Both the position numbers and the translations under genes were made by a program. Below are positions 1-7,418 of a stretch of 7,418 nt of DNA, piece by piece (positions within the stretch are counted from its first letter, which is position 1; each line of letters opens with the position of its first letter). The DNA is from Candidatus Mcinerneyibacteriota bacterium (GTDB taxonomy: Bacteria > AUK180 > JAQVHJ01). Under the pieces are notes generated by a model. It made no database searches and was not told where the DNA came from. It worked only from the letters and a program-made list of their open reading frames with translations. The stretch is from contig DAOVMD010000140.1 in the NCBI GenBank assembly GCA_030630935.1, positions 1-7,418 on the forward strand. Direction: 5' to 3'.

Positions 1-36
1 ACCGGAAAGTTCATTATTTAAAATCAATACTTTCAT
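1..36 (-). CDS. 5' end of an unidentified gene, cut by the window edge
   Basis: Twelve codons are visible, reading MKVLILNNELSG, with no stop before the left edge. The ATG (36-34) overlaps the flippase stop codon in an ATGA arrangement. A good ribosome binding site, AAGGAG (47-42), lies five bases upstream inside the flippase tail, so the start is well supported and the gene belongs to the same operon. The opening resembles the first beta strand of many GT-B (family 4-like) glycosyltransferases, which often begin MKVLxxNNE. A glycosyltransferase would fit after a flippase, but twelve residues cannot establish a family. Confidence 0.6.
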   Translation of the reverse strand, partial: MKVLILNNELSG

Positions 37-1538
37 TTAAACTCCTTTCTATATCTATAAAAATAATAATATAATCCAAAAGGCACTGTAATAATAGTAA
101 AAAGAATGGATCTTTGTAAATAAATCAGATAACCATTTAATTTATAAATACATTCAACTGAATGAATAATCAGTAAACTTAAAAATAATATTATAAATGG
201 AAGAGATATATTAAAAAATTTCTTTATCGCTTCTTTTCGTGTTTTTGAAATGTATTTTAAAGTAAAAAAAATCACTCCAATTCCATATAATAAATAGGTT
301 AGCGATGTTCCATAAGATACACCATTTATTCCAAAACCCATTAATAAAATAACATAATCTGTTATAATACAAACTATAATTGAAATAATATATATTTTAA
401 TAATATCTATCTGTCGGTGAATAACAATCAAAAAATTGCCAAGAACCATTGAAATAGAATAAAAGAATAATCCAAAGGTTATAATTAGAAAAGGCTCGAT
501 TGAATTCAAATATTTCGGTAAAAACGATTTCACTAAAAACGGAAATAATATGTAAGCATAACCAGTTAAAAACATTAATATGTATGAAAAACCAAGTGTA
601 GGTTTATATACAATATTAGTCATTTCATAAATATTTTTTAACTTTCCATATTTAAAGGACATTTTAGGAAACAAAGTTACACCTATTGTAATAGGAAGCA
701 TAAGTAAAAAAGATGTTAGTGTAATGCTAAAATGATAATAGCCTAAATCTGTTTTTGTTAAATACATCAAGATGAAGGTTTTATCTATATTCCGTATTAG
801 GATATTAGAATATGAAATTAACATAAGGGATATACCCGGGATGATCATTTTAAACATTTTTTTTACATCAAAATCAAACCGAAATTTCACATGCTTTATT
901 AATCTTATAAAGATTAAAGACACAATATAGGTAGTAATTACTGCTAAATAAAGCCCTTTTAATTTAAAGAAATATGTTAAGGGTACTGCAAATAATAAAT
1001 TTACAGCAGAAAAAAAGATTGAAATTTTTACTAAGCTCTTAAAATCATCCAAAGCGCGAATTGCAATAGAAAAAAAACCATACACTCTTATGGTAATTAT
1101 TAATATACCTATTAATATTATACCTAATTTATATATTGGTGATGCTGTTTGCCCAAATGTAAAAAGATATATAAAAATAAAGATAGAGAAAATTAATCCG
1201 AAAAAGAAATTAAAAGTAAAAGTTACATTCATTAACTTCTCACATTCTATAACATTATTCCTTGCCCTTGCCTTTGGATAACTTCTTGAAAATTCGGTGT
1301 TCAAACCAAAATCAAAACCCATTATATAAGTCAAAATAACAAATAGACTTGACCAGATCCCTAATAGTTCAGGACCTAAAAACTTTGCAATTAGGAAACC
1401 GCGAACTGTATTGAAAATCCTGCCAATAATTGAACCGGATAACATCAATATTGAATCAATAATCGTTTTCTTCTTGAAATCTACTTGAACTTCTTGTGTG
1501 AGCTTCTTTTCATTGGTTCGTTTTTTATACTGTTTCAT
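33..1538 (-). CDS. Wzx-like polysaccharide flippase (MOP superfamily)
   Basis: A 501-residue integral membrane protein with a basic, lysine-rich cytoplasmic start (about residues 1-25) followed by some 12-14 hydrophobic segments. Marks of the polysaccharide transporter branch of the MOP superfamily are FLGPELLGIW near residues 53-62, DFGLN at 76-80, and IDKTFIL...DLGYY at 251-268. The length is normal for Wzx/RfbX-type proteins. Members move undecaprenyl-diphosphate-linked oligosaccharides from the inner to the outer face of the cytoplasmic membrane. It follows the dehydratase after 18 bases, so it should share its transcript. The ribosome binding site is weak (AGGA about 12 bases upstream of the ATG), which may keep expression low. 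It presumably exports the glycan that carries the sugar made by its neighbours; the substrate cannot be read from sequence. Confidence 0.88.
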   Translation of the reverse strand: MKQYKKRTNEKKLTQEVQVDFKKKTIIDSILMLSGSIIGRIFNTVRGFLIAKFLGPELLGIWSSLFVILTYIMGFDFGLNTEFSRSYPKARARNNVIECEKLMNVTFTFNFFFGLIFSIFIFIYLFTFGQTASPIYKLGIILIGILIITIRVYGFFSIAIRALDDFKSLVKISIFFSAVNLLFAVPLTYFFKLKGLYLAVITTYIVSLIFIRLIKHVKFRFDFDVKKMFKMIIPGISLMLISYSNILIRNIDKTFILMYLTKTDLGYYHFSITLTSFLLMLPITIGVTLFPKMSFKYGKLKNIYEMTNIVYKPTLGFSYILMFLTGYAYILFPFLVKSFLPKYLNSIEPFLIITFGLFFYSISMVLGNFLIVIHRQIDIIKIYIISIIVCIITDYVILLMGFGINGVSYGTSLTYLLYGIGVIFFTLKYISKTRKEAIKKFFNISLPFIILFLSLLIIHSVECIYKLNGYLIYLQRSILFTIITVPFGLYYYFYRYRKEFK

Positions 1539-1556: not shown

Positions 1557-2585
1557 TTACAATATTTTTAATTGTTTAATTAACCTCATTATCTGATTTT
1601 TATTTAGAGGAATCCCACGTGAGGAATATTCTCTCATTTGAAGTTTCTTTGTATTATATAGTTTTAAATTTCCCTGCTTTAATGAAACCTTAAATTCGGG
1701 GTGAGGTAAGATAATATACATATCTGTTGTCTCTACTGCAAATTGTGATTCTATCTCAGTAAGTAATAATTCAAAATGTTTTTCGCCTGGGCGAGGATTA
1801 ATTATCTTAACTTTTATGTCTTTTGATTTAAATCCAAACTGGGGGGCGCAATATTTAATTAAAACATCAACGAGATCGCCTAACTTTATTACAGGCATCT
1901 TTAAAATAAAAACTTCACCACCACTAGTCAATTTTGTTGCTTTAAATATCAATTGAACTGCATTAGGGATTGTTATGAAAAACCTCGTCATTTCTGGATC
2001 GGTTACAGTTACAGGACCACCTTTTTTTATCTGGTTTATAAATAATGGAATCACCGAACCGCGGGAACCCAATACATTGCCGAATCTAACCGATGAAAAT
2101 ATGGTCTTTTTGCTACCTTTATAAAACATTGCAGAAGTTATTATCTTCTCTCCTAATAATTTTGTTGCCCCCATCACGTTAACCGGTTCCGCAGCTTTGT
2201 CTGTACTGATTCCAATAAATAATTTTACCCCTTGAGCAAGAGCACAATCAACAACATTCTGTGTCCCTATCACATTTGTCTTTACTGTTTCAAAGGGGTT
2301 ATACTCTGCAATGGGTACATGTTTAATCGCAGCAGTATGATAAACAATATCAATGTTCTCCATCGCCATCATTAAACGTTCTTTATCTCTTACATCACCA
2401 ATTAAATATCGTAAATTCCTATATTTCTTCATTTCTTGTCTCATCATATATTGTTTATACTCATCCCGAGAGTAAATCCTAATTGTTTTTGGTTTATACT
2501 TTAATAACTGCCTGACTATCTCAGAGCCGATTGAACCTGTACCCCCAGTAATTAAAATTTGTTTACCCTTAAAATATCTTTTCAT
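1557..2585 (-). CDS. Short soluble NAD-dependent UDP-HexNAc 4,6-dehydratase (CapD/LegB-like)
   Basis: A 342-residue extended SDR protein of the polysaccharide biosynthesis CapD family. The Rossmann NAD site is GGTGSIG (14-20). Family motifs are AAIKHVP (85-91), STDKA (127-131), RFGNVLGSRGS (167-177), DPEMTRFF (196-203) and RPGEK (265-269). Thr128, Asp129 and Lys130 match catalytic positions known in PglF-type enzymes. The usual SDR tyrosine is Met138 (MGATK, Lys142 following), as in WbpM, PglF and LegB, rather than the Tyr of PseB/FlaA1. That points to the C5-retaining reaction, UDP-GlcNAc to the 4-keto-6-deoxy-D-xylo product. The membrane domain of WbpM/PglF/CapD is absent, so the enzyme is cytoplasmic. 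It starts 6 bases after the aminotransferase stop, with the AGG of its ribosome binding site in that gene's last codons. Substrate is inferred, not shown. Confidence 0.9.
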   Translation of the reverse strand: MKRYFKGKQILITGGTGSIGSEIVRQLLKYKPKTIRIYSRDEYKQYMMRQEMKKYRNLRYLIGDVRDKERLMMAMENIDIVYHTAAIKHVPIAEYNPFETVKTNVIGTQNVVDCALAQGVKLFIGISTDKAAEPVNVMGATKLLGEKIITSAMFYKGSKKTIFSSVRFGNVLGSRGSVIPLFINQIKKGGPVTVTDPEMTRFFITIPNAVQLIFKATKLTSGGEVFILKMPVIKLGDLVDVLIKYCAPQFGFKSKDIKVKIINPRPGEKHFELLLTEIESQFAVETTDMYIILPHPEFKVSLKQGNLKLYNTKKLQMREYSSRGIPLNKNQIMRLIKQLKIL

Positions 2586-2591
2586 TTCTTT

Positions 2592-3707
2592 TTACCTGTA
2601 TTTTTTAATGGTTGTTTGAATTAAATTGCAGACATACTTGATTTGGTCATCAGAAATATTATTAAAAAAAGGAATTGCAATCGTTCTTTTTGAAATTGCT
2701 TCTGTAATCGGGAAATCTCCTTCTTTATATCCAAATCTCTCTCTATAAAACGGCTGTAAATGAATTGGTGGAAAATAGGGTTTGGATTGAACGCCTAAGT
2801 CATTTAACTTTTTCAAAATATCATCCCGATCTAAATCCTTTGCTAATTTAATTATGTAAACAAACCATGACATTCTCGTGACATAATCTGCAACTTTTAA
2901 TGGTTCAACTCCATCAATTCCCTTAATTCTGTTATTATATTTCTCTGCTATTGCACTCCTTTTATTTAATATCTCTTCTATCCGTTCCATCTGAACAATC
3001 CCCAGGGCTGCACTCATTTCATTTAACCTGTAATTATATCCCAACCTGGTATGATCCAGCCAACTATCACTTGGACTTCGGCCTTGATTACGAAGACTTC
3101 GGGCATAATCACATAAATCATCATCATCAGTAACAATAATCCCGCCTTCGCCAGTTGTAATCTGTTTGTTTGGATAGAATGCAAAAGCACCTCCAACTCC
3201 AAACCGACCTACCTTTTGACCTTTATATTCAGCTCCAAGTGCTTCACAAGAATCTTCAATGATTGGAAGATTATATTTCTCTGATATTTTCAATATCTTA
3301 TCCCAATCTAACGGATGACCAAATATATCAACTATAATTAATGCCTTTGTTTTTTCTGTTATCTTCTCTTCAATTTTATCTTCATCGATATTTAATGTGT
3401 CTGGATTGATATCTACAAAGACGGGAGTACCACTCTCAAATAAAATTGCATTGGAAGATGCAATAAATGAAAATGGCGATGTGATCACTTCATCACCTTT
3501 TGTAATACCAAGATACTTAATCATAATATGTAAAGCTGATGTTCCACTGTTTACACCAACTGCATGGCTTACTCCAATATAATCTGAGAGTGCCTTCTCA
3601 AATTCTATTATCTTAGGACCAATACTTAAATGACGGGTTTTCAAAACATTAACTACTGAATCAATCTCCTTTTGAGTAATATCCGGGCTTGAAAGTGGGA
3701 CCTTCAT
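2592..3707 (-). CDS. PLP-dependent sugar aminotransferase (DegT/DnrJ/EryC1/StrS family, LegC/PglE-like role)
   Basis: A fold-type I aminotransferase that puts an amino group on a nucleotide-linked keto-sugar. From the chosen start (MKVPLSSPDI) it is 371 residues, the usual family length. Visible motifs are GTSALH (55-60, phosphate site), EDSCEALGA (151-159, with Asp152 for the pyridine nitrogen), FYPNKQITTGEGG (177-189, with Lys181 as the Schiff-base lysine), GYNYRLNEM (223-231) and PYFPPIHLQPFY (310-321). The ATG at 3707 has GGAAG eight bases upstream and gives the canonical family N terminus. The same frame stays open upstream to an ATG at 3722 and another at 3902 (436 residues), so an N-terminal extension is possible (see the separate entry). 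Being directly followed by the 4,6-dehydratase, its likely substrate is that enzyme's 4-keto product, giving a 4-amino-4,6-dideoxy sugar. Confidence 0.9.
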   Translation of the reverse strand: MKVPLSSPDITQKEIDSVVNVLKTRHLSIGPKIIEFEKALSDYIGVSHAVGVNSGTSALHIMIKYLGITKGDEVITSPFSFIASSNAILFESGTPVFVDINPDTLNIDEDKIEEKITEKTKALIIVDIFGHPLDWDKILKISEKYNLPIIEDSCEALGAEYKGQKVGRFGVGGAFAFYPNKQITTGEGGIIVTDDDDLCDYARSLRNQGRSPSDSWLDHTRLGYNYRLNEMSAALGIVQMERIEEILNKRSAIAEKYNNRIKGIDGVEPLKVADYVTRMSWFVYIIKLAKDLDRDDILKKLNDLGVQSKPYFPPIHLQPFYRERFGYKEGDFPITEAISKRTIAIPFFNNISDDQIKYVCNLIQTTIKKYR

Positions 3708-3944
3708 AATTTTTTCTTCCATGTTTAAAATCCATTTATTCTTTTTATAATACTTGGATGATATCTCTTTTAAAACTGTATCGTTTACAATTGTAAAATT
3801 CTGTTCATTAATATTTATCAATTCACCTTCATAAGTTGGATACAAAAAAGCTATGACTTTATTCTCTAAATCCTTAACTGAATCATTCTTCGAAATCAAC
3901 ATCAGCCTTTCAAATTCTTCGCGGTTAATATAACAACTGAAACT
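3708..3944 (-). other. 79-codon open stretch in frame with the aminotransferase (extension or fossil coding sequence)
   Basis: After a stop at 3947-3945 the aminotransferase frame is open for 79 codons before the canonical family start at 3707. Such a run is unlikely by chance in DNA this AT-rich. The translation looks protein-like (for example INREEFERLMLISKNDSVK and PTYEGELININEQNF), with alternating hydrophobic and charged residues, but I do not recognise a family. An ATG at 3902 could start a 436-residue protein; its nearest purine run (GAAAGG) sits only about three bases away, which is poor. It may be a real N-terminal extension, the 3' remnant of a gene lost beside the IS element, or chance. 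No known DegT aminotransferase domain needs it. Confidence 0.45.
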
Positions 3945-4005
3945 TTATTCCTGTCCTGGAAAAATTGAATTCTTTAATATCATTCCTATAATCATATAAT
4001 TATAT

Positions 4006-4034
4006 ATTTTATAGTTATGTTAGGATCATGTCAT
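4006..4034 (-). promoter_or_regulatory. Candidate sigma-70/sigma-A promoter for the aminotransferase block
   Basis: On the minus strand ATGACA (4034-4029) is followed after exactly 17 bases by TAAAAT (4011-4006), each matching five of six consensus positions. Transcription would start near 3999, upstream of both candidate aminotransferase starts. It would let the aminotransferase, dehydratase and flippase be expressed independently of the promoter at 7261-7233, from which they are separated by the IS remnant. The surrounding DNA is so AT-rich that -10-like sequences are common, so the call rests on the -35 match and the exact spacing. Confidence 0.4.
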
Positions 4035-4073
4035 AAATTCCAATTGTTTTCATTGAAATGTTTAAAGAACTTA

Positions 4074-4100
4074 TTTAATTATACCATATTTATAATTAAA
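4074..4100. repeat. AT-only inverted repeat, 10-bp arms
   Basis: TTTAATTATA (4074-4083) and TATAATTAAA (4091-4100) are perfect inverted repeats around a 7-base spacer. There is no G or C in the arms and no adjacent T tract on the minus strand, so it is not a convincing terminator. On the minus strand the arm contains TGGTATAAT, an extended -10 shape, but the matching -35 (TTTATT) is poor. Confidence 0.35.
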
Positions 4101-4176
4101 AATAAAGAGATATTTCCTTAATTTAGTCGGATAACTTTTTGTAAAATATTATATATTTTTTAAGCTAAGCCCTTTT

Positions 4177-4562
4177 TTTCTGTAAAATTAAGAATGGATC
4201 ATTTCATTTTCTATTTTCTCCTTCTCCTCCTTCTTGTTATTAAGATTTTTAATCTTTGTTAAAAATTCATTGCCTTCTTTCTTTACCGTATGCCTGTCTT
4301 CATTAATATCCATATACTGCCGGTTTGAAGTTCTCCATTCTTCATCGATCTCCATAAGAATAGCAAACATTAATCTTATGCATGATTCTTTGTTTTGAAA
4401 AACATTAATTATCTTCAAGCGCTACTTAAGCTTTTTATTTATTACTCCTTTAATTCGATTGGTAGTTCTTATCTTCTTTCGATGCTTTTCAGGGAAACCA
4501 TAATCGGAAGTATTATCCCCGGAGTTAAAGAACCTCTATTTTACAGAAAGTATAACACACCC
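4177..4562 (-). mobile_element. Decayed, internally deleted IS256-family (Mutator-type) insertion sequence
   Basis: This segment contains the C-terminal part of an IS256-family transposase and is flanked by a perfect 12-bp inverted repeat: TTTCTGTAAAAT at 4177-4188 and ATTTTACAGAAA at 4538-4549. On the minus strand the transposase-proximal end reads GGGTGTGTTATACTTTCTG from 4562, which looks like an IS256-type terminus. Complete IS256-family elements are about 1.3-1.5 kb with a transposase of about 400 codons. Here the left repeat runs almost directly into the last third or less of the gene, so the N-terminal and most catalytic coding sequence is gone. The outer boundaries are estimates, the far end has diverged, and no target duplication was found. 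It sits between the NeuC-like and aminotransferase genes. Confidence 0.6.
4188..4535 (-). pseudogene. IS256-family transposase fragment (C-terminal), with an internal stop
   Basis: Reading from 4535 the frame gives FPEKHRKKIRTTNRIKG, then an in-frame TAG (4424-4422), then RLKIINVFQNKESCIRL and ILMEIDEEW, ending at 4188. This matches the family's conserved C-terminal block, roughly FPxxHRxxIRTTNxIERLN-EIxRRTKVVxVFPN-xSxLRL-LMEIxEEW, in order and with the expected spacing. The catalytic N-terminal and central regions are absent, and a stop (4538-4536) closes the frame upstream. It is therefore a dead fragment, not a gene. The tail beyond EEW is lysine/glutamate-rich. The only in-frame part without the stop (4188-4418) would need a TTG start and should not be annotated as a protein. 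Confidence 0.82.
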
Positions 4563-4663
4563 TTTATCTTTTCTTCTTTTAAATTAAAAATTAATTTAAA
4601 AATAACATTCTATTTAAACTTCCATTATTTTATACTGATGAAAGATTTACGTTAATATTACTT
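4563..4663. repeat. Short AT-rich spacer after the NeuC-like gene with an AT-only inverted repeat
   Basis: Between the NeuC-like stop and the IS remnant there is about 100 bp of very AT-rich DNA. It contains a perfect inverted repeat, TTTTAAATTA (4577-4586) and TAATTTAAAA (4592-4601), around five bases. With no G:C pairs and no following U run on the minus strand it is unlikely to be an efficient terminator, so read-through into the aminotransferase block remains possible. I see no gene here. Confidence 0.4.
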
Positions 4664-5815
4664 TTAATATACAATTGATTTTTGAATTAGATTCTCATCA
4701 ATTTCAATATTATGGAGTATCTTTACAATCCTTCTTGAAGTTTTTCCATCACCATAGATATTTTTTATCCTATTAATCTTTGATAGAAATTTTTTATCAA
4801 ATAAGGATTTTCGGATAGCTTTCATTATCTCTTTTTTTTGATGTGGAACGTCAATCACATTTTTATTTCTTTCTCTACCTTCTTGGCGTATTCCAATATT
4901 CACTACTGGAATTTTGAAACTTGCTGCTTCAATTATTCCACTGCTAGAATTCCCAACAAGTACTTTACAATATTTTAATAAGTTTAGATATATTTTTCTT
5001 TCAAGATTTTTAATAATTTTTATATCCTTATAATTTTTATATTCCTTTAGTTTTTTGATTATTCTTCTCCCTCCTGCATCTGAATTTGGATAAATTATTA
5101 TTTTTCTCATTTCAAATTGTAAAACCGCTTCAAGTGTTTGAATTATCTGTTCTTCTGCATAATCTGGTTGAGTAGATACAGAATGTTGAACTACTAATAG
5201 ATATGGCTCTGAATTATTTAGTTGCATGTATTGTTCAATATTCTTCCTTGATATCAATTCCATAGTAGTTATTTCATCAAGTCCCGGAGCACCTACCTCA
5301 TGGATTCTCCATGCTTCTTCACCCAATTTCTTTATCCTAGAAGCGGATTTTGAAGTAGCAGGAAAATGAATATGAGCAAACTTGGTAATAGCGTGCCTTG
5401 AAGATTCATCAAGACCTGCTTTTGATTTATCCCCTCCATGTATATGTGCTACAGGTATATTCATATAAGTAGCAGCGATCGTTGCGGCTAGAGCTTCCGT
5501 TCGATCTCCAAGAACCATTATAATATCAGGACAAATATTATGTAATATTTCTGAAAAACCAAGAATTCCTTTCCCGACAGATTTTGACATTGAAAAAGAT
5601 GTATCATCAGCGGGAATCATCCGGACTTCACCTATAATATTAAAACCATCTGCCAAAATCTGTTTCTTTGTGAAACCAAATTCTTTAGAAATATGCATCC
5701 CGGCAATAACTGTCTGTAAAATTAAAGACTTATCTTTTTCAATTTCTCTCATTACATTTCTTAATAAACCATACTCAGCACGAGTTCCAGTTATGATACA
5801 AATTTTCTTGGTCAT
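4664..5815 (-). CDS. Hydrolysing UDP-GlcNAc 2-epimerase family protein (NeuC/LegG type)
   Basis: A 383-residue GT-B-fold enzyme. NeuC-type members hydrolyse a UDP-HexNAc and invert C2, releasing a free ManNAc-type sugar plus UDP, for nonulosonic (sialic, legionaminic) acid synthesis. Motifs are GTRAEYG (10-16), LGDRTE (102-107), HIHGGD (124-129), QHSVSTQP (210-217), GNSSSGIIEA (288-297, nucleotide site), GIRQEGRER (308-316) and the C-terminal YGDGKTS (354-360). GTRAEYG and GNSSSG...RQ.GR favour the hydrolysing branch over the non-hydrolysing WecB type. The ATG at 5815 shares its A with the formyltransferase stop (TAATG), favouring tight coupling; an upstream TTG at 5836 is a poorer start. Specificity (UDP-GlcNAc, or a 4-amino-6-deoxy derivative as for LegG) cannot be read, but the neighbouring dehydratase and aminotransferase favour the latter. 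Confidence 0.88.
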   Translation of the reverse strand: MTKKICIITGTRAEYGLLRNVMREIEKDKSLILQTVIAGMHISKEFGFTKKQILADGFNIIGEVRMIPADDTSFSMSKSVGKGILGFSEILHNICPDIIMVLGDRTEALAATIAATYMNIPVAHIHGGDKSKAGLDESSRHAITKFAHIHFPATSKSASRIKKLGEEAWRIHEVGAPGLDEITTMELISRKNIEQYMQLNNSEPYLLVVQHSVSTQPDYAEEQIIQTLEAVLQFEMRKIIIYPNSDAGGRRIIKKLKEYKNYKDIKIIKNLERKIYLNLLKYCKVLVGNSSSGIIEAASFKIPVVNIGIRQEGRERNKNVIDVPHQKKEIMKAIRKSLFDKKFLSKINRIKNIYGDGKTSRRIVKILHNIEIDENLIQKSIVY

Positions 5816-6561
5816 TATTCTATCTCTGCCTTCCAAATCCTTAATTTCTTCCCATGTACTTTTATATACGCCCCTTTGTAAGGTTTTGATAATGCCCGGA
5901 TTTTCCTAATTATTAATTTAGGATTATCTTTTTTTAAATCAATTCTATTGTTGCGAAGTTTGGGCTTTTTAAAATAAAATGCCTTCTTATTATCTTGGGG
6001 AATACGGGGAGCAGTTCCTTGATCAATTAAAGGGAAATAATCGAAAATTAACTTCTTTCCTGCTTCTATTACTTTTTCATAGATATCTAAAGCATAATCA
6101 TTCTCATCAATCGAGAATTTTTCCTGACCGATTATATCCCCAGAATCCAATCCTTCATCTAAATAAAACATTGTAACTCCAGACTTTTTTACACATTCAA
6201 AAATAGTATTTATTATTGGAGCAGACCCCCTACCATAAGGAAGTAAGGTTGGATGAAATCCTATCGTTCCTAATTTGGGAATTTTAATAATATCCAGCGG
6301 GATAATCTCTCGCCAACCTATTACTACTAATAAATCAGGTTTCATTTGTTCAATTTCAGTTAACGATTCTAAGATTGAACTAACTTTAGTTACATCAACA
6401 TTAAATCTATTCCAATTTTCTTGGGGAATTTTATCATAGATTACAAATGGACTGTCTTCTTTGCTGGTTATAATACCACAAAGAATAAGCTCAGGTATCT
6501 TACTTGCAGTTATTAAAGCTTGGTACCCAAATTTATTTGCTGATAACCAAATAACTTTCAT
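5815..6561 (-). CDS. Sugar-type formyltransferase (Fmt/GART fold)
   Basis: A 248-residue protein of the formyl-transferase family, which moves a formyl group from N10-formyl-tetrahydrofolate to an amine. The core motif is GTIGFHPTLLPYGRGSAPI (98-116), followed by LDEGLDSGDII (134-144). A gapless comparison with remembered E. coli Fmt places His103 on catalytic His108 and Asp139 on Asp144, but catalytic Asn106 is replaced by Gly101. The C-terminal segment (RALSKPYKGAY, KLRIWKAEIE) resembles the small C-terminal subdomain of Fmt, shortened; total length is well below tRNA formyltransferase (about 310). Context, between a deacetylase and a NeuC-like enzyme and with an aminotransferase downstream, favours N-formylation of an amino sugar over initiator tRNA. 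Its ATG overlaps the upstream stop (ATGA). Confidence 0.85.
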   Translation of the reverse strand: MKVIWLSANKFGYQALITASKIPELILCGIITSKEDSPFVIYDKIPQENWNRFNVDVTKVSSILESLTEIEQMKPDLLVVIGWREIIPLDIIKIPKLGTIGFHPTLLPYGRGSAPIINTIFECVKKSGVTMFYLDEGLDSGDIIGQEKFSIDENDYALDIYEKVIEAGKKLIFDYFPLIDQGTAPRIPQDNKKAFYFKKPKLRNNRIDLKKDNPKLIIRKIRALSKPYKGAYIKVHGKKLRIWKAEIE

Positions 6562-7205
6562 TTTATATTATATCCTCTAATTAAACAAAAAGCCTCAGCA
6601 TATTTAGTACACGCTTCGGTTCCTCGCTTACCGGCTAAATATTTAATTCCTTCAACACTTCGAGGATGAGGGTATTTTTTTACCTCTGATTCATATATTA
6701 AAAAAGCTTCAATCTTTTTATCGATTTCATCAGAGATATCTACCCAAACATTTGGTGTAAATTGATTAATTCCCCATTCTGTCTCTGAAAGGGTTTCATA
6801 AGTAAATAAATTAGCCATCAAGGGAGGACGAGATACTACTAATACAGACTTAAATGCAATATTATGATCAATATTAACATCATTTTGACAATGAGTATAG
6901 ATAATATGAGGTTTTATTTTGTCTACTACTTTTTGAATTTCTCGATTCAATTCCCCGTGAGGTAATGTGTTTAATTTTACAGTTGGTAAGTCCAAATTAA
7001 TCCTCACTTTAATCCCGATTAATTGATCTACTTCACGTTGCTCTTCTATCTTTTTATCCATATATTCTTGAGACCAATCCGGTTTATATGCTTTGGTTAA
7101 TATACAAACATACACTTCATCGGCTTCTTTAACATGTTTTATTAATCTTCCACCAACTCCTAATAATTCATCATCCGGGTGGCAGGCAATAACTAATACT
7201 TTCAT
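6558..7205 (-). CDS. PIG-L/LmbE-family zinc N-deacetylase
   Basis: A 215-residue cytoplasmic protein of the PIG-L superfamily (relatives: MshB, BshB, GlcNAc-PI deacetylase), which removes acetyl from N-acetyl sugars using one metal ion. Motif 1 is ACHPDDE (7-13), with His9 and Asp12 as likely ligand and base/ligand residues. Motif 2 is THCQNDVNIDHNIAF (104-118), with His114 as the third ligand. The C-terminal RGTEACTKYAEAF (194-206) is the usual family ending. No signal peptide is seen. It is the first gene behind a perfect-consensus promoter, with AGGGGAG (7217-7211) five bases before the ATG. It overlaps the formyltransferase by four bases (ATGA), which suggests coupled roles on the same sugar: exposing an amine that is then formylated, or deacetylating a later intermediate. 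The substrate is unknown. Confidence 0.88.
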   Translation of the reverse strand: MKVLVIACHPDDELLGVGGRLIKHVKEADEVYVCILTKAYKPDWSQEYMDKKIEEQREVDQLIGIKVRINLDLPTVKLNTLPHGELNREIQKVVDKIKPHIIYTHCQNDVNIDHNIAFKSVLVVSRPPLMANLFTYETLSETEWGINQFTPNVWVDISDEIDKKIEAFLIYESEVKKYPHPRSVEGIKYLAGKRGTEACTKYAEAFCLIRGYNIK

Positions 7206-7232: not shown

Positions 7233-7261
7233 ATTATATCATATTATAAAACCTTTGTCAA
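7233..7261 (-). promoter_or_regulatory. Perfect-consensus sigma-70/sigma-A promoter of the deacetylase operon
   Basis: On the minus strand TTGACA (7261-7256), a 17-base spacer and TATAAT (7238-7233) match the housekeeping consensus at all twelve positions. Transcription should start near 7226, leaving a leader of about 20 bases that contains the AGGGGAG ribosome binding site (7217-7211). The leader is too short for a riboswitch or attenuator. A promoter this strong suggests constitutive high expression or control by a repressor. Confidence 0.85.
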
Positions 7262-7314
7262 ACTATACTGAACCAGAACAGCTCTGAATAGTAAATTAAA
7301 AATCGTTTGACAAA
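7254..7314. repeat. 10-bp inverted repeat carrying the two divergent -35 boxes
   Basis: TTTGTCAAAC (7254-7263) and GTTTGACAAA (7305-7314) are exact reverse complements 41 bases apart, and each contains the -35 box of one of two divergent promoters. The core TTTGACAAA is itself palindromic around its central base. A further TGACAAA occurs at 7341-7347. The matching flanks could be a shared operator or simply two strong -35 boxes in AT-rich DNA. Confidence 0.5.
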
Positions 7315-7335
7315 AATCGAAAAATGTATTAAAAT
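7307..7335 (+). promoter_or_regulatory. Strong sigma-70/sigma-A promoter reading rightward out of the window
   Basis: TTGACA (7307-7312), a 17-base spacer and TAAAAT (7330-7335) match eleven of twelve consensus positions. Transcription should start near 7342 and reach the GGGAGG ribosome binding site at 7387-7392 after a leader of about 45 bases. It is divergent from the operon promoter, with 45 bases between the two -35 boxes, so one regulator could serve both. Confidence 0.75.
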
Positions 7336-7397
7336 ATGTATGACAAAAGGTGTAGACGGTATTATAGCTCTTTAGAAATTATTTTTGGGAGGATACG

Positions 7398-7418
7398 ATG
7401 GAACACAATATTTTTTAA
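7398..7418 (+). CDS. Six-codon ORF (MEHNIF) behind a strong ribosome binding site; leader peptide or broken gene start
   Basis: The ATG at 7398 lies five bases after GGGAGG (7387-7392), downstream of a strong promoter, so initiation here is very likely. Yet the frame reads MEHNIF and stops at TAA, the last three bases of the window. It could be a leader peptide for a gene beyond the edge, the start of a gene disrupted by mutation or sequence error (the stop follows a run of six Ts), or a minimal ORF without function. What lies downstream cannot be seen. Confidence 0.4.
   Translation: MEHNIF

Follow-up and report, generated by a model that had tools for sequence, protein, structure and literature searches.

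The window, a stretch of 7,418 nucleotides, belongs to a locus that probably makes a CMP-activated, N-formylated legionaminic-type nonulosonic acid, in which a PIG-L deacetylase and a formyltransferase (FMT) would exchange an acetyl for a formyl group at C2. Gene content, linkage, conserved order, gene fusions and co-occurrence of folate genes are the observed basis of this scheme, from which we infer all the activities, the C2/N5 position, the exchange intermediate and the C8 stereochemistry.

Organization of the locus

The first-pass annotation had placed five genes on one strand, from a dehydratase to a deacetylase, and Pfam and NCBIfam profile matches confirm all five on the minus strand at the positions proposed. 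The features of the window are as follows.

33..1538, minus strand: Wzx-type polysaccharide flippase (PF01943, E 4e-10)
1557..2585, minus strand: NDP-GlcNAc 4,6-dehydratase, PseB/CapE/Pen-like (PF02719, E 4e-108)
2592..3902, minus strand: DegT sugar aminotransferase, LegC/PseC-like (Pfam PF01041, E 7e-120)
4188..4418, minus strand: ORF of 76 aa between NeuC and DegT
4664..5815, minus strand: NeuC/LegG-type hydrolysing UDP-sugar 2-epimerase (TIGR03568, 450 bits, cut-off 235.9)
5815..6561, minus strand: formyltransferase (FMT), Fmt/ArnA fold, 248 aa (PF00551, Formyl_trans_N, E 4e-24; PF02911)
6558..7205, minus strand: PIG-L/LmbE-family de-N-acetylase, 215 aa, first of the pair (Pfam PF02585, E 2e-19)
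7233..7261, minus strand: promoter-like site TTGACA-17-TATAAT ahead of PIG-L (12/12, TG before the -10)
7270..7278, no strand assigned: 9-bp target-site duplication GAACCAGAA (TTCTGGTTC on the minus strand), identical to C154 4375-4383
7279..7296, plus strand: 18-bp terminal inverted repeat CAGCTCTGAATAGTAAAT of the insertion sequence (11 exact genome copies)

The five genes share a strand but do not form an unbroken run, as about 760 bp part NeuC from DegT; the only ORF in this gap (76 aa) gave no family match in the Pfam search. The tight coupling described earlier is borne out by the overlaps of PIG-L with FMT (4 nt, ATGA, 6558-6561) and of FMT with NeuC (1 nt, TAATG at 5815). The promoter-like site upstream of PIG-L (7261-7233) is a perfect sigma-70-type match. 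Homology of the DegT protein begins at residue 68, and its true start is probably the ATG at 3722.

A single insertion sequence (IS) copy joins the window (contig C291) to contig C154; it carries 18-bp inverted ends, is flanked by identical 9-bp target duplications and extends from its terminal repeat to the contig end (7297-7418). Three left/right pairs of IS ends in the genome have identical 9-bp duplications. C154 encodes NeuA, NeuB and NeuD, and the joined order is NeuA-NeuB-NeuD-[IS]-PIG-L-FMT-NeuC-DegT-dehydratase-Wzx. The nonulosonate synthase on which the earlier proposal depended, NeuB, is therefore present on C154 and IS-linked to the window.

Proposed pathway and its product

In the proposed scheme, the PF02719 dehydratase would dehydrate UDP-GlcNAc, DegT would aminate the sugar at C4 and NeuD (PglD-like) would acetylate N4. 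PIG-L would then strip the C2 nitrogen of its original acetyl group, and the freed amine would be formylated by FMT from 10-formyl-tetrahydrofolate. NeuC is predicted to release UDP with inversion of C2, NeuB to condense the sugar with phosphoenolpyruvate and NeuA to make the CMP sugar, and the finished unit may be exported by Wzx. The expected product would be 5-formamido-7-acetamido-legionaminic acid or its C8 epimer. The pair would most simply act at N2 (the C5 position of the nonulosonate), replacing acetyl by formyl, because only N2 arrives acetylated, while N4 formylation needs no deacetylase because LegC delivers N4 as a free amine.

FMT and the deacetylase had been thought to replace the acetyltransferase LegH and to give a 4-formamido sugar; this is not upheld, as an acetyltransferase candidate, NeuD, is retained. 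A partly de-N-acetylated product, also suggested, is possible and not required. The earlier suggestion of a possibly undescribed product is probably mistaken, since 5-N-formyl-legionaminic acid has been detected by MS in the haloarchaeon Halorubrum sp. PV6 (PMC6137143); the product is thus probably not new. The PIG-L/FMT acyl-exchange pair appears to be undescribed in the literature searched: a search that covered few subscription journals found no paper linking PIG-L to legionaminic acid or formylated nonulosonates.

Pathway enzymes other than the pair

NeuC scores as a hydrolysing 2-epimerase, and its best solved relative is GDP/UDP-N,N'-diacetylbacillosamine 2-epimerase. The aminotransferase lies below the cut-offs of both PseC (324.8 bits, cut-off 423.5) and LegC (302.5, cut-off 420). 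The dehydratase had been called LegB-like; it is a PF02719 dehydratase, but the LegB label is loose, as evident from 70.6 bits against TIGR04180 as compared to a cut-off of 475. It reaches 341.6 bits against the PseB model (cut-off 407.75), and its best solved relatives are 6bwc CapD and 2gn4 FlaA1. Judged from these profile matches, it is an unassigned member of the PseB/CapE/Pen type and not a canonical LegB, and its failure to score as a retaining LegB-type dehydratase was counted against the exchange scheme. The Met/Tyr active-site position was rejected as a marker of retaining and inverting enzymes, as Met is shared by CapE and enzymes of the FnlA type. Since the dehydratase sequence does not tell whether C5 is retained or inverted, the C8 epimer is possible, and the name 'legionaminic-type' does not denote the LegBCHGIF pathway.

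NeuB of C154 belongs with LegI/NeuB synthases (TIGR03569, NeuB_NnaB, 451, cut-off 399.65) and falls under the PseI model (290.5, cut-off 340.25); the C154 cytidylyltransferase likewise falls under PseF (166, cut-off 205.7). A pseudaminic route in this genome was rejected, as NeuB is below the PseI cut-off and PseG found no match in the 80%-complete assembly. NeuD exceeds the cut-off of TIGR03570 (222 against 160.8), is closest to PerB, VioB and PglD, and is a candidate 4-N-acetyltransferase that would fill the acetyltransferase place in this locus; it could also be an O-acetyltransferase. The LbH acetyltransferase of related clusters is absent from this genome, which has three weak matches to LbH, one of them NeuD. 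FolD is present elsewhere in the genome, outside the cluster.

The deacetylase and the formyltransferase

The metal ligands of PIG-L (H9, D11, D12, E13, D113 and H114; HPDDE/H-x-DDE with a distal DH) are invariant in 13 relatives, and its nearest solved relatives are an LmbE-related protein, diacetylchitobiose deacetylases and BshB1. The PIG-L matches of Priestia and Cytobacillus (40%) have glycosyltransferases as neighbours, without nonulosonate genes, and were set aside.

The nearest solved relatives of FMT are Fmt and ArnA. Alignment to ArnA indicates that His103 and Asp139 of the catalytic triad are kept and that the catalytic Asn is replaced by Gly101; this position is Gly in the window and in 13 of 14 FMT relatives, and Ala in one. 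The full Asn-His-Asp of the ArnA/Fmt type is hence not found in FMT, which was counted against the exchange scheme. Identity with housekeeping Fmt was rejected, as FMT relatives at E<1e-60 form a clade of their own and are very rare in bacteria: in three bacterial samples, only one genome besides the three from which the search started had such a relative. Plasmid and phage tblastn matches to FMT were mostly formyltransferases of other polysaccharide loci, about 30% identical, and the FMT tree did not resolve the direction of gene transfer.

Recurrence of the pair and alternative explanations

Beside the same partner genes, the PIG-L/FMT pair is also found in archaea, in further bacteria and on one putative viral contig. 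When the gene set was sought elsewhere, as the first-pass annotation had advised, the order NeuB-PIG-L-FMT-NeuC-acetyltransferase-DegT-dehydratase was found in a Woesearchaeota contig and related genomes, and the same set, rearranged, in a Parcubacterium. Of 380 genomes related to the Woesearchaeota one, 9 encode a close PIG-L relative (E<1e-100), in each case adjoining an FMT relative; the latter is present in 10, the tenth at a contig end. A haloarchaeal plasmid carries NeuB-PIG-L-NeuC with two formyltransferases. In one locus NeuB is fused to PIG-L and FMT to NeuC. The conserved order and these fusions support the earlier view that NeuC shares a pathway with the deacetylase and the formyltransferase and, together with NeuA, NeuB and NeuD linked to the window, that this is a nonulosonate pathway with N-formylation.

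In the Woesearchaeota-related set, folate genes accompany 10/12 PIG-L clusters with a formyltransferase as compared to 0/5 without, and many versions encode a one-carbon supply of their own (SHMT, FolD, 5-FCL). The bacterial loci have no folate genes within the cluster, a point counted against the exchange scheme. Given the conserved order, the fusions and the folate genes at most loci of the archaeal set, FMT is very probably a 10-formyl-THF enzyme in a nonulosonate pathway.

It is unlikely that FMT takes the role of LegH by formylating N4 while PIG-L frees N2, to give a 5-amino-7-formamido nonulosonate with NeuD as an O-acetyltransferase. Three points fit such a route: N4 in the pseudaminic pathway is formylated by PseJ-type enzymes, the solved relatives of FMT include a formyltransferase named PseJ, and O-acetyltransferases such as E. 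coli NeuD belong to the NeuD family. Yet every cluster of sufficient sequence length has a candidate 4-N-acetyltransferase beside the pair, and NeuD is nearest to 4-amino-sugar N-acetyltransferases. Moreover, in some other clusters PIG-L is paired with WbqC instead of FMT, which fits an amine prepared for whichever acylating partner is present. The computed residue mass would be 260.10 for the 5-amino-7-formamido product as compared to 302.11 for one formyl and one acetyl group.

Improbable, too, is a correct but later exchange, following the NeuC or NeuB step, with the free hexosamine or the finished diacetyl nonulosonate as substrate. The NeuB-PIG-L fusion fits action near the NeuB step, and PIG-L-family deacetylases accept varied GlcNAc-like substrates; against this, in the same locus FMT is fused to NeuC and lies upstream of NeuC in gene order. 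That the pair merely shares the operon and acts on a different sugar of the same polysaccharide is very unlikely: one locus has a related PIG-L-FMT pair whose neighbours, judged by eye, resemble transketolase and ATP-grasp genes and include neither NeuB nor NeuC, but the position between NeuB and NeuC is conserved across diverse genomes and two fusions are found.

Besides the exchange at C2 proposed for the window, a general N5-acyl cassette may tentatively be considered, in which PIG-L would be devoted to freeing the amine and FMT, a PseJ-type formyltransferase or WbqC would interchangeably re-acylate it, in legionaminic- and pseudaminic-type sugars of archaea, bacteria and putative viral contigs. 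Family annotation gave no function for WbqC. The two-enzyme exchange is a candidate for the missing step by which formyl reaches N5 of a known archaeal sugar, and the pair would mark genomes that make N-formylated sialic-acid-like sugars. The function of WbqC could then be hypothesized to be that of an alternative re-acylating partner, and enzymes for making N5-variant nonulosonates would become available.

Comparison with known systems

FMT shares with PseJ and ArnA the Formyl_trans_N fold, the catalytic His and Asp and the LLPxxRG and DxGDI motifs, but has Gly for the catalytic Asn. To our knowledge, PseJ/ArnA-type sugar N-formyltransferases act on an aminotransferase-made C4 (or C3) amine, without a deacetylase. 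PIG-L shares its metal motifs with BshB1 and diacetylchitobiose deacetylase, which take the C2 N-acetyl group off GlcNAc-like sugars, and the same is proposed for PIG-L; it differs in its linkage to nonulosonate genes and lies far under the BshB1 cut-off (73 bits, cut-off 182.5).

The window pathway has NeuC/LegG, NeuB/LegI, a putative cytidylyltransferase, a DegT aminotransferase and a candidate acetyltransferase in common with the canonical LegB-C-H-G-I-F pathway, to which it adds PIG-L and FMT, and its dehydratase lies outside the curated LegB type. Halorubrum sp. PV6 has homologues of LegB, LegC, LegG, LegI, LegF and NeuD and, like the window, a predicted formyltransferase gene adjoining legG (PMC6137143). 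No deacetylase is named in that report, nor is a route to the N5 formyl given, whereas the window has PIG-L. The haloarchaeon Halorussus has a formyltransferase from which the FMT clade is separated with good support. From the published Halorubrum ions a mass step of 302.10 was computed, in agreement with one acetyl and one formyl group (302.11); it fits 5-formyl-7-acetyl and 5-acetyl-7-formyl equally, the 5-position being taken from PMC6137143. The Halorubrum product carries one formyl and one acetyl group, as would be expected for the window.

Gene layout of the window

The five genes proposed by the first-pass annotation (de-N-acetylase, formyltransferase, NeuC, DegT aminotransferase and dehydratase) were recovered at their places with scores far above chance. 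The features first needed here are as follows.

6558-7205, minus strand, PIG-L/LmbE-family de-N-acetylase (PIG-L), overlapping the formyltransferase gene via ATGA
5815-6561, minus strand, Fmt/ArnA-fold formyltransferase (FMT), overlapping the NeuC gene via TAATG
4664-5815, minus strand, NeuC, 450 bits against a cut-off of 236
33-1538, minus strand, flippase, last gene of the contig

The assignment of NeuC is clear-cut, and among solved structures it comes closest to the hydrolysing UDP/GDP-diacetylbacillosamine 2-epimerase. A sigma-70-type site (12/12 matches, 7261-7233) lies immediately upstream of PIG-L. A gap of about 760 bp (3903-4663) separates NeuC from the DegT and dehydratase genes; it holds a 76-codon ORF (4188-4418) resembling, by eye, a transposase C-terminus, with no match in Pfam. 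About 60 open codons (3722-3902) ahead of the DegT homology match no known family, and the DegT start is probably the ATG at 3722.

Linkage of the window to the synthase genes

A nonulosonate synthase, whose absence was held by the first-pass annotation to speak against its pathway, is present in the window's source genome (80% complete) as a single NeuB on contig C154, in the order Wzc-NeuA-NeuB-NeuD (Wzc named by eye). The 18-bp repeat CAGCTCTGAATAGTAAAT occurs at C154 4384-4401 and at window 7279-7296, flanked in both on the outer side by the identical 9-bp duplication TTCTGGTTC. The genome carries 11 exact copies of this repeat, every one close to a contig end; the ends fall into two types, with three left/right pairs sharing identical 9-bp flanks (C19-C273, C83-C377 and C154-C291, where C291 is the window). 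We infer that the C154 end and the window's right end are opposite ends of a single copy of a multi-copy insertion sequence. Since their flanks are identical, the ancestral order, read from these flanks and not from assembled sequence, would be NeuA-NeuB-NeuD-PIG-L-FMT-NeuC-DegT-dehydratase-Wzx, with the insertion between NeuD and PIG-L. The insertion-sequence ends span window 7270-7418 and C154 4375-4506 (L002), where the assembly is broken. The insertion may interrupt co-transcription of NeuD and PIG-L.

Conservation of the PIG-L/FMT pair

Close relatives of FMT are found on a Woesearchaeota contig (54%), in a Parcubacterium (52%), and on an IMG/VR (50%) and an Omnitrophota contig (49%); all four clusters contain NeuB and PIG-L, and NeuC wherever the contig is long enough. 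This clustering, together with the insertion-sequence link to NeuB, bears out the nonulosonate class of the pathway first proposed. The neighbourhoods typically read NeuB-PIG-L-FMT-NeuC-LbH acetyltransferase, followed by DegT and dehydratase. Whole-genome searches (E<1e-80) covered 380 genomes related to the Woesearchaeota one, which are likely archaea, and detected FMT in 10 of them; of 334 genomes related to the Parcubacterium, 2 were positive, and in two further sets (338 and 386 genomes) only the starting genome was hit. Among the 380 Woesearchaeota-related genomes, exactly 9 encode a PIG-L relative (E<1e-100), adjoined by FMT in 9/9. On the assumption of independent genomes, which does not hold here, such co-occurrence would arise by chance with a probability of about 1e-17.

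Gene fusions and variant loci are listed below.

L060 6783-9479, NeuB-PIG-L fused in one 899-aa frame
L060 9542-11629, FMT-NeuC fused in one 696-aa frame with an Asn-rich linker
L060 11629-13179, FolD-5-FCL (5-formyl-THF cyclo-ligase) fused in one 517-aa frame; this fusion occurs in L054 too
L026 (IMGVR_UViG_3300030616_000506, a 144-kb contig classed as viral) 4636-14730, NeuA, short NeuB, short NeuC, PIG-L, FMT, LbH acetyltransferase, amidotransferase, DegT and dehydratase
L061 8839-10469, PIG-L-formyltransferase pair adjoining transketolase-like and ATP-grasp-like genes, without NeuB and NeuC; perhaps the same exchange on a different sugar

A small protein, by eye like an Lrp/AsnC-type winged-helix regulator, heads many PIG-L clusters (L057 4447-4941, L058 14732-15217, L059 14076-14594, L060 6216-6695, L089 5702-6190, L093 5526-6002 and L094 12499-12993). 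Adjacent genes in L025 (1741-2529 and 2545-3318) encode products near-identical across their last 200 residues, reflecting either tandem duplication or an assembly artefact.

The putative acylating partner of PIG-L alternates. In L089, L090, L093 and L064, PIG-L has WbqC (Pfam PF08889) as a direct or near neighbour, together with NeuB and often NeuC or PseG, and FMT is missing; these four, with L094 and viral L121, L124-L126 and L128, carry a WbqC-family gene adjacent to PIG-L within a nonulosonate or glycan cluster, mostly at the formyltransferase's place. In the pseudaminic-like clusters L091 and L092, PIG-L adjoins PseJ-type formyltransferases (typed by motif), and pairing with WbqC or PseJ recurs in several IMG/VR contigs. 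Such variation around a constant deacetylase is the pattern to be expected of an acyl-exchange module, at the level of gene neighbourhood and not of activity.

Folate genes and the formyl donor

The catalytic Asn position of ArnA is Gly in FMT of the window and most relatives. 5-FCL, FolD and/or SHMT genes accompany FMT in 8/9 clusters of the Woesearchaeota-related set, a cluster ending just past FMT being left aside. When pseudaminic-like loci are taken in, folate genes occur in 10/12 clusters with a formyltransferase versus 0/5 with PIG-L but no formyltransferase (p ~0.003, kinship ignored); the nonulosonate clusters bearing them are L023, L052, L053, L054, L056, L057, L058, L060, L091 and L092. 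This co-occurrence supports a truly 10-formyl-THF-dependent reaction, the Gly for Asn notwithstanding, and the in-cluster genes are seemingly a private formyl supply. The bacterial loci have no folate genes within the cluster; FolD lies elsewhere in the window's own genome. A search of that genome with FMT returned itself and a 206-aa PurN-like frame (C398) only, and no housekeeping methionyl-tRNA formyltransferase, perhaps owing to the 80% completeness.

Probable site of formylation

In the nonulosonate, N5 derives from N2 of UDP-GlcNAc and is acetylated from the start; N7 derives from N4, a free amine supplied by the aminotransferase, hence formylation of N4 needs no deacetylase. All clusters of sufficient length also retain a second acyltransferase: either NeuD or an LbH protein, the latter 65-71% identical in most LbH-bearing clusters. 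PerB, VioB and PglD, acetyltransferases acting on 4-amino sugars, are the nearest relatives of the NeuD of the window locus. The earlier suggestion that FMT and the deacetylase replace LegH, giving a 4-formamido sugar, is therefore probably wrong. Acyl exchange at N2 would fit best, because two acyltransferases and one deacetylase are present for two nitrogens, one of them pre-acetylated: PIG-L would deacetylate N2, and FMT would formylate the freed amine. The substrate may be the UDP sugar, a free hexosamine or the finished acid; the fusions point FMT towards NeuC and PIG-L towards NeuB. The dehydratase scores below the cut-off of the LegB model, its nearest relatives being PseB/CapE/Pen-like enzymes, so the product may have either configuration at C8.

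Comparison with haloarchaeal 5-N-formyl-legionaminic acid

The sugar of Halorubrum sp. PV6 has been described as 5-N-formyl-legionaminic acid (PMC6137143), and the step of 302.10 computed from its published ions (PMC6137143) matches the 302.11 of one formyl plus one acetyl group. The product, thought at first to be perhaps undescribed, is thus probably known in archaea. A formyltransferase gene was predicted for Halorubrum PV6 and a deacetylase was not named (PMC6137143). Against the literature compared, which included few subscription journals, the dedicated PIG-L/FMT exchange pair appears to be new, as do its partners. In Halorussus, a haloarchaeal plasmid carries PIG-L flanked by NeuB and NeuC; two formyltransferase genes lie close by.
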